NCBI GenBank assembly: GCA_902517455.1 | Contig: CABYCN010000009.1 | Span: 1 to 33,625, forward strand | DNA from: an uncultured Pelagibacteraceae bacterium | GTDB lineage: Bacteria; Pseudomonadota; Alphaproteobacteria; Pelagibacterales; Pelagibacteraceae | DNA: 33,625 nt | Direction of reading: 5' to 3' | Shown here: positions 12,266 to 15,061 of the stretch, one piece after another | How the letters are laid out: each line of letters opens with the position of its first letter | How positions within the stretch are numbered: position 1 is the stretch's first letter | Translations under genes and position numbers: made by a program | Notes under the pieces: generated by a model | Databases searched by the model: none | Told to the model about the DNA's origin: nothing | What the model saw: the letters and a program-made list of their open reading frames with translations, nothing else

Positions 12266-13705
12266 TTAGCGTTTAACTTTAAGAACTATCAAGGGTAGAA
12301 AAGTTGCTATTGCAAAAGATAAAAATAATAATGATTGTGAGACAAAAGGTGCAAATATTTCTTTAGGTAATAAAATGCCTACTAATAAACTTTTAGAGAA
12401 ATCAGGTGTGGGGAACATCAAAAATCCACCAATTAGTCCAATTATAATCGATACGTAAGCAGTTTTTTCATTAATTTTTTTATTGTAGAAACTATAAAAA
12501 ACAGTGAGCACAAAAGCACAACAGAATAAATCAGCTAATAAAAATAAATACAAAATGTCAAACCCTTTTGATGCAACAATAAATGAGATTAATGATAAAA
12601 ACAAAATCATATATTTAGAAACTTTTAAGTAATTTGTTTTTTTGTCTAGATTAAATGTTGCTTTTCCATCTACAACGATCAAGCTTGATATTGCATTTAC
12701 CAAAGTATCTACAGTAGAAATAGTCAATGCCAAACCTAGTATAATTACTACAACAGAAAGTAGTTCTGTTTGATCTTTAAGTAATAATATAAAAAAACCA
12801 AGATCAGGCCTTGTGGTAGGGTCTATAGAAAAGGCAATCATTCCTGTAAAACCCATATAAAAAACGACAGGTATTATTAAAAAAAAAGATATAATTAAGC
12901 TTTTCTTGAGAGTTTCAAAGTTTTTAGCAGCATACACTCTTTGCCAATTACCCTGATGAAATAAATTAGTTGCAGCTACTGCAATAAAAAAGGTTAAACC
13001 AGCTGTATAATTAGGTACGTAAGATGAGCTCAATAGTTGAGGATTTTTTTCTTTTATAAAATTAAAAGAAAATTCGGATCCTGTAAAAGAGGTTATGTAA
13101 ATTAAAGAAATTAACAAAAGAACTCCTATAACGATCATTTGAATGTTATCAGTGAATATAGAAGCCCTTAAGCCTCCATACAAAGTATAAGCGAGAGTAG
13201 ATAATAAAACAATTAAAGCAGTTATCCAAAGCTTTGTGCCTGAAATATAGTTAATTAGAACAGCTACTGCAGTAACTTCAGCACATAAAAAAATAAACAT
13301 ATAAAAGATTGTCATTAATAGAATTAGTTTAAATAAACTTTTTCCAAACTTTTTACGCATAAACTCAACTAAAGAGGATCCTTTAGGAAATTCTTTTCTA
13401 ATTTTTTTTCCAAGATATATTAAAAAAAACATTGGAAAGGCTGTGCCTAGCGAATATCCTATAATAGCCCCTATTCCTCCCCATGTTGCCGCTGAAGCTG
13501 GACCAAATAAAATCCATGCTCCCAAAGCTGAAGCAGTTAAACTTGTTGTTAATGAAAATAATCCAATATTTCTATTGGCAGTTAGATAGTTATTTAGACC
13601 TTGATATTTTTTTGAATTATATATGCCTAAAAAAACAAATATTAAACTAATGAAAATAACTAATGTTAACGACGTATATTGACTTAAAAAATATGTTTTA
13701 TCCAT
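12266..13705 (-). CDS. thiV: Sodium:solute symporter under a TPP riboswitch (ThiV type)
   Basis: A 479-aa SSS-family sodium-coupled transporter with about 13 membrane helices; family segments include LTASALGAWILFGPASAA and TLYGGLRASIFTDNIQM. A TPP riboswitch lies directly in front, which marks it as an importer of thiamine or a precursor. SAR11 genomes carry a symporter, thiV, in this setting, thought to import the pyrimidine precursor HMP. I chose ATG at 13703-13705. A longer ORF to 13807 exists, but its extra 34 codons translate the riboswitch and upstream gene end, and the AGGGAA ribosome site suits the shorter form. Upstream genes on the strand encode two small unknown proteins. Confidence 0.88.
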   Translation of the reverse strand: MDKTYFLSQYTSLTLVIFISLIFVFLGIYNSKKYQGLNNYLTANRNIGLFSLTTSLTASALGAWILFGPASAATWGGIGAIIGYSLGTAFPMFFLIYLGKKIRKEFPKGSSLVEFMRKKFGKSLFKLILLMTIFYMFIFLCAEVTAVAVLINYISGTKLWITALIVLLSTLAYTLYGGLRASIFTDNIQMIVIGVLLLISLIYITSFTGSEFSFNFIKEKNPQLLSSSYVPNYTAGLTFFIAVAATNLFHQGNWQRVYAAKNFETLKKSLIISFFLIIPVVFYMGFTGMIAFSIDPTTRPDLGFFILLLKDQTELLSVVVIILGLALTISTVDTLVNAISSLIVVDGKATFNLDKKTNYLKVSKYMILFLSLISFIVASKGFDILYLFLLADLFCCAFVLTVFYSFYNKKINEKTAYVSIIIGLIGGFLMFPTPDFSKSLLVGILLPKEIFAPFVSQSLLFLSFAIATFLPLIVLKVKR

Positions 13706-13707
13706 AA

Positions 13708-13773
13708 TTTCCCTTTCTGAATTACCGGACAGGTTCTTAGGGTTTAATCTCAGTCTGTAAAGACACCCCTTAA
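13708..13773 (-). promoter_or_regulatory. TPP riboswitch (thi-box) controlling thiV
   Basis: Read on the minus strand, the conserved aptamer parts appear in order. They are AGGGGTGTC, stem P3 GTCT-TTAC-AGAC, CTGAGA, ACCCT closing P2, GAACCTG, CCGGTAATTC and GAAAGGGAA. They match the TPP consensus CTGAGA...ACCC...GAACCTG...GGTAAT...GGGAA. The P4/P5 arm is short. There is no separate expression platform: the terminal AGGGAA is itself the Shine-Dalgarno 4 nt before the thiV ATG, so TPP binding should hide it and block translation. The element fits in the 76 nt between the 95-aa gene and thiV. Confidence 0.92.
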
Positions 13774-13781
13774 ATGGTGGA

Positions 13782-14080: not shown

Positions 14081-14260
14081 TTATCTTTTAAAGCAGTTGT
14101 TGACTAAGATTGCCATTAAAATCCAAATGACAAACACCTCACCGTTTGTAAAAGAATAATCAGCGCCTGCAAAACCCGCCACAATGTTTATGGCATAAAT
14201 GATAACTGTTGATGCTACCAAACTTACTAACAAATTTATTAAACCATTTATATATTTCAT
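14081..14260 (-). CDS. Small two-helix membrane protein (59 aa), unknown function
   Basis: A 59-codon ORF from ATG at 14258-14260 to TAA at 14081-14083. A first helix spans about residues 6-30 (LINLLVSLVASTVIIYAINIV), followed by a short polar turn with GADYSFTNGE and a second helix (42-54, VFVIWILMAILV). Residues such as GFAGADYSFTNGE give it a normal protein composition for its size. It ends 11 nt before the 95-aa gene and is the first gene of the minus-strand thiV unit; a promoter should lie within about 14261-14350. The family is unknown. Being in line with a vitamin transporter suggests, but does not show, a related role. Confidence 0.6.
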   Translation of the reverse strand: MKYINGLINLLVSLVASTVIIYAINIVAGFAGADYSFTNGEVFVIWILMAILVNNCFKR

Positions 14261-14351
14261 TAGTTAAGATTATATATATTTATTTTCAAAGCAATTTAAA
14301 ATTTCTATTAATAGGTGAATTTTTTTAATGCGCGAATATCATAAAAACACA

Positions 14352-14410
14352 AGGTTGTATTCAATTAATTTATTTTAATTTATGCTAAATATATATCTTG
14401 AATACAACCT
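14352..14410. repeat. 12-bp inverted repeat in the 14.26-14.6 kb spacer
   Basis: AGGTTGTATTCA (14352-14363) pairs perfectly with TGAATACAACCT (14399-14410), with one further A-T pair inside, around a very AT-rich 33-nt loop. The loop holds -10-like words (TATGCT at 14381-14386). It could be two operator half-sites flanking a promoter, or the 5' stem of the plus-strand transcript described next. Confidence 0.5.
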
Positions 14411-14447
14411 GCTAAAAATTTAACTTTTTATTAAGGAGGTTATTCAC

Positions 14448-14474
14448 ATGAATCAAAAGCCACCTGATACTTAG
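14448..14474 (+). CDS. 8-codon ORF MNQKPPDT with perfect Shine-Dalgarno
   Basis: ATG-AAT-CAA-AAG-CCA-CCT-GAT-ACT-TAG follows AAGGAGGT by 7 nt, the best ribosome site seen in the window. PPD is a known strong ribosome-stalling motif that depends on EF-P, so the ORF may be a leader peptide whose translation senses something, rather than a functional protein. No downstream gene lies on the same strand before the terminator. Confidence 0.35.
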   Translation: MNQKPPDT

Positions 14475-14547
14475 CTGGCTAATTGCATAATCAATACAAA
14501 TATAAAAAATAAAATCCGTTTGGATTTAAAAGCCAAAAAAGCAATAT

Positions 14548-14594
14548 AGAGGAGCTCTTTTGGAAAAAAAACTAAAAGAGCTAACCTCTTTTTT
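14548..14594 (+). terminator. Strong rho-independent terminator
   Basis: Stem AGCTCTTTT (14553-14561) with AAAAGAGCT (14574-14582), extended by AGAGG (14548-14552) with CCTCT (14585-14589) after a 2-nt bulge, then six T residues on the plus strand. The T run shows that it terminates plus-strand transcription. It ends 5 nt from the minus-strand cytochrome stop and may serve that gene weakly. Confidence 0.75.
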
Positions 14595-14599
14595 ACAAA

Positions 14600-15061
14600 T
14601 TAATGTGAAGCTCTAAATTTACTGTGGCAAGCTTTGCAATTAGACCACATAAATTTACCAAGGGTGCCTTTTATATCATCTGAAGTTTCAATTATTTTGG
14701 TCAGTTTAATCATATCATTTGATGATTTAGTCATTAAATCGTTAAATTCATTTTTATTTTCCCAAATAATTGCTAATGCTTCTGTCTTAAATCCTTCTTT
14801 GGAATTATCAGGAAAATATTCAATTAATGTTTTATAATTTTCACTCATTTCTATCATCAAAGTTTTCGCTTTTTCAAATTCACCTTTACTAGCTAAAGCT
14901 TGAACCCTTTTTGCTGTGCTATAATTCTTACTGAATAATGCTTTTCTTCCTTTGATTATCTCTTCAACTGAAAGTTCAGAGTTTGCAGGAAGCGACAAAA
15001 ATACAAAAATTGAAATAAAGAAAATATACTTTAGCCCTATAATATTATATTTTATTAACAT
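14600..15061 (-). CDS. Cytochrome c'-type (class II) periplasmic cytochrome
   Basis: A 153-aa secreted c-type cytochrome. A signal peptide covers about residues 1-28 (hydrophobic run YIFFISIFVFLSL, then PANS). The mature part is a four-helix bundle, and the single haem motif CKACH (142-146) lies at the very C-terminus, as in cytochromes c' and c556. It should carry electrons in the periplasm or bind small gases; the partner is not proven. The adjacent divergent cytochrome b561 is the obvious candidate. The ATG is the only Met near the start, and it abuts the b561 start in a shared CATATG, so there is no untranslated spacer. Confidence 0.87.
   Translation of the reverse strand: MLIKYNIIGLKYIFFISIFVFLSLPANSELSVEEIIKGRKALFSKNYSTAKRVQALASKGEFEKAKTLMIEMSENYKTLIEYFPDNSKEGFKTEALAIIWENKNEFNDLMTKSSNDMIKLTKIIETSDDIKGTLGKFMWSNCKACHSKFRASH
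15038..15043 (+). promoter_or_regulatory. Consensus -10 box (TATAAT) before cytochrome b561
   Basis: TATAAT lies 18 nt upstream of the b561 ATG, inside the signal-peptide codons of the divergent cytochrome c gene. It would give a leader of only about 12 nt, and no Shine-Dalgarno is seen. The -35 region is not clear. Confidence 0.35.

Follow-up and report, generated by a model that had tools for sequence, protein, structure and literature searches.

A putative stand-alone structured RNA with a conserved micro-ORF in Pelagibacteraceae

Introduction

The closest described systems to the element reported here are leader-peptide attenuators and arrest peptides, dual-function small RNAs and leaders of the MgtL type. 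With leader-peptide attenuators and arrest peptides, such as TnaC, the cat and erm leaders and the RAPP arrest peptides, the element has in common a short open reading frame (ORF) with a strong Shine-Dalgarno sequence (SD), conserved residues at the end nearest the peptidyl-transferase center (PTC) and hairpins after the ORF; unlike them, it has no co-oriented downstream gene in any of 140 cases, its ORF spans only 6–9 codons and its pausing is putative. SgrS, RNAIII and SR1 are dual-function small RNAs that encode a peptide, and the element resembles them as a stand-alone structured RNA that carries a small, conserved ORF, but this ORF is far shorter, only its last residues are conserved and Hfq was found in none of ten SAR11 genomes. 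MgtL, as described in the excerpt consulted, shares with the element proline and acidic residues in the first codons, but is the leader of mgtA, whereas the element stands alone (PMC11282234).

Here we describe this element, a plus-strand sequence of ~240 bases at approximately 14332–14589 of the window (the whole 33,625-nucleotide stretch of DNA that was analyzed), which is single-copy and belongs to the Pelagibacteraceae (SAR11).

Results

Architecture of the element

In order, the element comprises a promoter-like motif, a DNA dyad, a strong SD, a micro-ORF and three hairpins, H1–H3 (Table 1). An earlier note on this DNA, made from the letters of the window, had pointed to a spacer without a long gene at 14261–14599, and we found no ORF of ≥80 amino acids there on either strand; the features it named are all present in the window copy, at the positions it gave or a few bases off. 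The order of SD, ORF and hairpins is kept in relatives, as expected of the stand-alone unit with a micro-ORF that the note had envisaged. Judged by comparison among genomes, the element is very probably a stand-alone structured RNA, as yet a putative transcript, with a translated micro-ORF.

Table 1 Features of the element in the window copy
Feature	Position	Strand	Evidence
Promoter-like motif cGGGA-N3-TA[C/T]NAAA	14332–14345	+	Column conservation and fixed distance to the box in 45 dereplicated elements
DNA dyad: GGTTGTATTCAA box (14353–14364) and reverse arm (14398–14409)	14353–14409		Left arm nearly invariant; 33-nt spacing; no covariation above shuffles
Extended Shine-Dalgarno sequence AAGGAGGT	14433–14440	+	8-base match to the anti-SD complement
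Micro-ORF MNQKPPDT, stop TAG	14448–14474	+	M-x-[P/L]P[D/E]T-stop in 50/50 BLAST loci and 53/54 covariance-model loci
Hairpin H1	14512–14527	+	Both-side changes in 6/6 pairs
Hairpin H2, one mismatch in the window copy	14532–14542	+	Both-side changes in 3/3 pairs
End hairpin H3, asymmetric internal loop, terminator-like only locally	14548–14589	+	Both-side changes in 10/15 pairs

In the window, the element is flanked by a small minus-strand gene starting at 14260 and a minus-strand cytochrome c' gene ending at 14600 (Pfam PF01322). The ORF at 14081–14260 (minus strand) encodes a 59-amino-acid hydrophobic protein without a Pfam match and is oriented divergently to the element; in 45 of 137 elements the upstream neighbor comes from this ORF family. 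No Rfam 15 family reached its gathering score in the window, and the ten matches in 14200–14650 were at chance level (E 2.6–9.7). Elsewhere, at 13692–13780 (minus strand), a TPP riboswitch-like match immediately ahead of a sodium:solute symporter gene (Pfam SSF) scored 39.4 bits (E 1e-6), short of the 54.3 bits that Rfam requires, and on the basis of this match Rfam gathering scores can miss riboswitches in this AT-rich genome.

Distribution across genomes

Of 200 related genomes searched by BLAST with 14340–14600, 125 gave matches at E ≤0.01, the weak ones being short and AT-rich, and 49, the window's own genome counted, had a best match of E <1e-8. Loci from these 49 genomes and from one weaker genome make up the 50 BLAST loci, every one of which carries the micro-ORF (50/50). 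The covariance search of Pelagibacterales that the earlier note had proposed was carried out with two models, both of which contain the peptide-motif columns: R1, which covers the stretch from the PP codons through H3 and whose loci are the best-scoring matches, and R2, in which divergent members were included. Among 397 genomes of the order, R1 identified the element in 151, each with a single match and all from three genera of one family; of the genomes with ≥90% completeness, 77 of 151 had it. Corresponding values for R2 were 115 of 297 genomes and 77 of the 150 good ones, with a second weak match on the opposite strand, overlapping the first, in two genomes (G219 and G311).

In a sample of the class, 3 of 385 genomes matched, all three of them Pelagibacteraceae; no genome outside the family matched in this sample under strict filters that lose weak matches. 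Among the titles listed, which cover 80 of 119 matching stretches, all were Pelagibacteraceae or Pelagibacterales. Two exact pattern scans of viral contigs for the element were empty, and blastn against phage records gave short weak matches in 23 records, none covering 80% of the element.

One copy looks decayed (G112:C6:25791-25910; L215/L247): the promoter box, SD and ATG are gone and there is no micro-ORF, while CTACCAGACACATAG and part of H3 are retained. By eye, the gene end preceding this copy resembles the upstream gene of many intact copies. Because approximately half of the good genomes are without the element and one copy looks decayed, its role is dispensable.

The element is present in genome G012, which we take to be HIMB5, at around 794.9–795.1 kb, and in G205, presumably 'Ca. 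P. ubique' HTCC1062, where it lies inside the intergenic region 762678–763012 (box at 762935–762946 with one base changed, SD at 762853–762859, ORF at 762820–762846 and model match at 762691–762834). In the part of Meyer et al. 2009 consulted, this HTCC1062 region is given with 76 BLAST hits and no RNA listed, and regions with <200 hits were removed from analysis; it was passed over because its 76 hits were under that limit (PMC2704228). SAR11_0785, the plus-strand gene listed beside the region in the same part of that source (PMC2704228), appears in the portion consulted of an iron-limitation microarray table at 1.52-fold, p 0.051 (PMC2864753). Stav et al. 2019 classified 47 HIMB5 intergenic regions, among which the sections consulted give one sRNA and three or more sORFs, and the element may already be among their sORF, sRNA or HRC candidates (PMC6429828). 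Our searches of the literature for SAR11 small RNAs, microproteins and sORFs found no description or transcript of the element.

Selection on the end of the micropeptide

The micro-ORF follows the consensus M-x(1–4)-[P/L]-P-[D/E]-T-stop, with a peptide of 6–9 amino acids; a single covariance-model locus of the 54 was without the ORF. Codons vary synonymously at all four motif positions (CCA/CCG, CCT/CCA, GAT/GAC and ACT/ACA), Asp and Glu are exchanged and all three stop codons are used. Among the 46 distinct elements of the 54 loci, threonine was encoded by ACT (n = 41) or ACA (n = 5), the acidic residue by GAT (n = 8), GAC (n = 33) or GAA (n = 5), and the stop was TAG (n = 37), TAA (n = 4) or TGA (n = 5). 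Members of genus g34 (G213, G249, G446, G242 and G294, the last presumably IMCC9063) carry ATG TCA CC[A/G] CCT GAA AC[T/A] TGA, which gives MSPPET, the shortest peptide; MNLSPPDT, with ACA and the stop TAA, is found in G205, G210 and G062, and MIKLTPPDT, also with TAA, in G202. Residues ahead of the motif differ freely in both identity and number. Loci L059–L177 were fetched by a pattern demanding PPDT and TAG and are no evidence for the motif. Because nucleotides change without amino-acid change and the residues before the motif vary freely, these comparisons show selection acting on the C-terminal end of the predicted micropeptide. The element shares with arrest peptides the conserved C-terminal residues of a translated ORF, translation here being judged from conservation.

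The earlier note had described the PPD of the window copy as an EF-P-dependent stall motif. PPD is indeed present there, but the diproline is not universal: four genomes (G071, G295, G390 and G419) have Leu-Pro-Asp-Thr (LPDT) instead of PPDT, so the diproline is not essential and the shared core is P-[D/E]-T-stop. In 100 of 104 distinct cases, the ATG that comes first after the SD is in frame; the other four are LPDT loci in which an out-of-frame ATG occurs earlier, at the SD. Conservation extends to the two nucleotides that follow the stop, CT in 136 of 141 elements (a set without the MLRITPPDT group).

The proposed strong SD and eight-codon ORF are both present and conserved. At 8 bases, the match of the element's SD to the anti-SD complement exceeds those of 29 window ORFs (median 4, maximum 6), which were chosen by hand from the window's ORF list with starts as listed. 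Its GGAGG is conserved among elements and mostly paired in predicted local folds, with a mean unpaired probability of 0.20 (46 elements). Masking of the SD by upstream sequence was considered and set aside: with the upstream 40 nt shuffled, the unpaired probability of GGAGG was 0.24 in the same number of elements, indicating nothing specific to that stretch.

Covarying hairpins and the RNA strand

The fold of 14352–14594 is far more stable than those of shuffled sequences (z −6.04, 0 of 200). In a MAFFT alignment of 39 elements, drawn from 50 dereplicated elements with near-duplicates removed by hand, both sides changed in 12 of 24 pairs (58 cells), a level that none of 500 shuffles reached. 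With divergent members included (47 elements, in an alignment fitted to the covariance model), both-side changes extended to 19 of 24 pairs (92 cells) in all four helices, again with 0 of 500 shuffles; sliding the partner columns of this alignment by 1–3 lowered paired cells from 96% to 26–66%. A further candidate, a hairpin across the stop codon, was rejected (both-side changes in 0 of 7 pairs). Since G·U cells outnumber A·C cells by 53 to 10, in an alignment whose fit to a plus-strand model favors G·U, the comparison points to the plus strand as the probable RNA sense strand.

H1 and H2 are both conserved. The strong terminator with six T of the earlier note is in part a local feature. H3 is followed by T's in the window, and the window copy passes a consensus scan for intrinsic terminators; among relatives the hairpin is conserved and the T-run is not: the 8 nt that follow the hairpin contain ≥5 T in only 10 of 137 measured elements (10 of 147 were left out because their end hairpin was not measurable).

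The same applies to a proposed switch between ribosome binding and termination. The complementary 7-mers GAGGTTA (14436–14442) and TAACCTC (14582–14588) do occur in the window, but they are not conserved in relatives: of 43 distinct comparisons, a single one showed complementarity of 7 bases, and the window's own copy is the sole one with it among 158 loci. Complementarity reached 3–4 bases in 35 of the 43 and 6 bases in 3. Alternative folds are consequently no general property of the element, and the conserved, mutually exclusive folds of ribosome site and terminator that mark an attenuator are absent. Matches of ≥4 bases were found in 25 of 43 comparisons versus 26% expected from shuffled arms, a modest excess, and a weak general affinity between SD and CCUC may exist.

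The upstream dyad as a probable DNA site

The promoter-like motif ends 8 nt before the GGTTGTATTCAA box, at a fixed distance in the 45 dereplicated elements; the first TA position of the motif is C in the window copy and T in 44 of the 45. Across the same 45 elements the left box is nearly invariant, the right arm is often shrunk to TTGAA and its outer part is degraded in part of the genomes. One symmetric site of the dyad reads A-A in 33 of 45 elements. As an RNA stem, the dyad gave both-side changes in 4 of 23 pairs (18 cells), versus 4.7 pairs and 23 cells in shuffles, a comparison of low power given the invariant left arm. What had been described as a 12-bp stem-loop therefore stands as an inverted repeat but not as an RNA stem. 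The spacing between arms, 33 nt in 142 of 144 elements, fits a DNA site, and the dyad is likely to be an operator or promoter element.

An exact search for the box in 13 genomes found it in ten, in nine of them at the element. Stray second boxes, one each in G202, G082 and G449, have no element beside them, and a reversed control pattern occurred nine times in the same 13 genomes; a box regulon was therefore rejected, the stray boxes being at chance level. In G208, a GGTTGTATTCAA box without the RNA (L233) is either a relic or a chance copy, and the relic reading is weak because stray copies are at chance level. The upstream stretches inspected for g34 (L211–L213, L245 and L246) showed no g1-type box; by eye, L213 has a different inverted repeat, TTGATTT/AAATCAA, in a similar place.

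A convergent gene follows in every case

To describe the genomic context, we used 168 motif loci, which gave 147 distinct loci after removal of 21 duplicates and 140 after setting aside 7 without enough downstream sequence. Elsewhere in the analysis, two weak opposite-strand rows (L029 and L115) were excluded under a stricter limit. The next ORF (≥50 amino acids) was convergent, on the opposite strand, in all 140, which agrees with the earlier observation that no plus-strand gene follows and extends it to relatives. Measured from the first base of the PP codons, the near end of this ORF lies at a median distance of 135 bases downstream (range 72–375). These convergent ORFs belong to 11 families, the commonest occurring 47, 33, 25 and 24 times, and the ORF preceding the element is on the minus strand in 77 cases and on the plus strand in 60. 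Because the next gene is convergent throughout, the element is not a leader, and the co-oriented downstream gene of attenuators and upstream ORFs was found in 0 of 140 elements. Together with the lack of a general T-run after H3, this suggests that transcription would not end sharply at H3 and that read-through into a co-oriented gene would not be tolerated.

Discussion

The reading that we tentatively favor, without regarding it as probable, is that a ribosome pauses at the P-[D/E]-T-stop end and thereby determines what becomes of the RNA. The element would be a self-contained RNA gene that has a promoter-like motif and a dyad DNA site of its own. We infer that it is transcribed and that the putative transcript would bind a ribosome through its near-perfect SD and be translated for 6–9 codons; P-[D/E]-T beside the stop may then slow elongation or termination at the PTC. 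The paused ribosome and the covarying hairpins H1–H3 would in turn set the stability or activity of the RNA itself, making it a translation-gated stand-alone RNA; the target of the pause would be the fate of this RNA, not attenuation of a downstream gene. The conserved end, the variable residues before it and the very strong SD fit frequent initiation followed by slowing at the PTC, and a pause at this level would also fit because conservation is confined to the residues nearest the PTC. The part of the source consulted lists PPD as one of the diprolyl motifs whose arrest EF-P relieves in E. coli (PMC6544042), and an EF-P domain was found in 10 of 10 SAR11 genomes searched. Against pausing are the LPDT members, which weigh in particular against a strict EF-P version, the predicted pairing of most of GGAGG and the dispensable role of the element; a stalled ribosome without a downstream gene also has no obvious output, and a free peptide with a conserved C-terminus would give the same pattern.

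A more specific form of ribosome pausing, possible but rather unlikely, is a ribosome-programmed RNA, one per genome, whose strong SD captures a ribosome that stalls after 6–9 codons at P-[D/E]-T-stop, the stalled complex serving as a trans regulator or sensor in SAR11 cells without Hfq and with no cis gene. Hfq (PF17209) was found in 0 of the same 10 SAR11 genomes (G000, G201, G202, G205, G206, G082, G012, G294, G207 and G208), among which G000, the window's own assembly (745,230 bases), is only 66% complete; in the control, 5 of 14 genomes were positive, including Caulobacter and E. coli.

Selection on amino acids in the motif, a gene that stands alone and a strong SD would equally suit a micropeptide of 6–9 residues that is itself the product and acts via its C-terminal P-[D/E]-T-COOH, the hairpins merely stabilizing a tiny mRNA. 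We consider this unlikely, though worth serious attention, since the residues ahead of the motif vary freely, with lengths down to MSPPET, the nucleotides after the stop are kept too and the hairpins covary along their length.

Also unlikely, in our assessment, is a trans-acting small RNA that uses the micro-ORF mainly to recruit a protective ribosome and base-pairs with its targets through conserved single-stranded parts. Such a regulator would be expected to look like the element, a structured RNA gene that is single-copy, stands alone and has a promoter-like motif and dyad of its own. The failure to find Hfq makes a classical Hfq-dependent base-pairing RNA less likely, however, and protection alone leaves selection at the peptide level unexplained.

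If drop-off or pausing at P-[D/E] reported the status of EF-P/ABC-F or of tRNA and thereby altered decay of the RNA, the element would be a sensor of translation state, which we think distinctly improbable. The EF-P domain in all ten genomes is in keeping with such a role, and an early EPDP motif destabilizes ribosomes on MgtL in the excerpt consulted (PMC11282234), but MgtL controls a downstream gene and the element has none in 140 of 140 cases. A leader or attenuator of a plus-strand neighbor, or a structure in the 3' UTR of the minus-strand gene that converges on the element, is highly improbable: the SD–peptide–hairpin order is attenuator-like and H3 sits immediately beyond the convergent gene's stop codon, but the next gene is on the minus strand throughout and drawn from 11 ORF families, the SD and ORF are on the plus strand and G·U cells far outnumber A·C cells.

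Few kinds of cell in the ocean are more numerous than SAR11. In 'Ca. P. ubique', the median intergenic spacer is 3 nucleotides, according to the part of the source consulted (PMC5069961). A conserved element of 240 bases that leads no gene, with selection on the last residues of its peptide only, should repay its cost. To our knowledge, the micro-ORF would rank among the shortest conserved coding sequences. The element offers a testable object for regulation by RNA and ribosome in bacteria where no Hfq was found.
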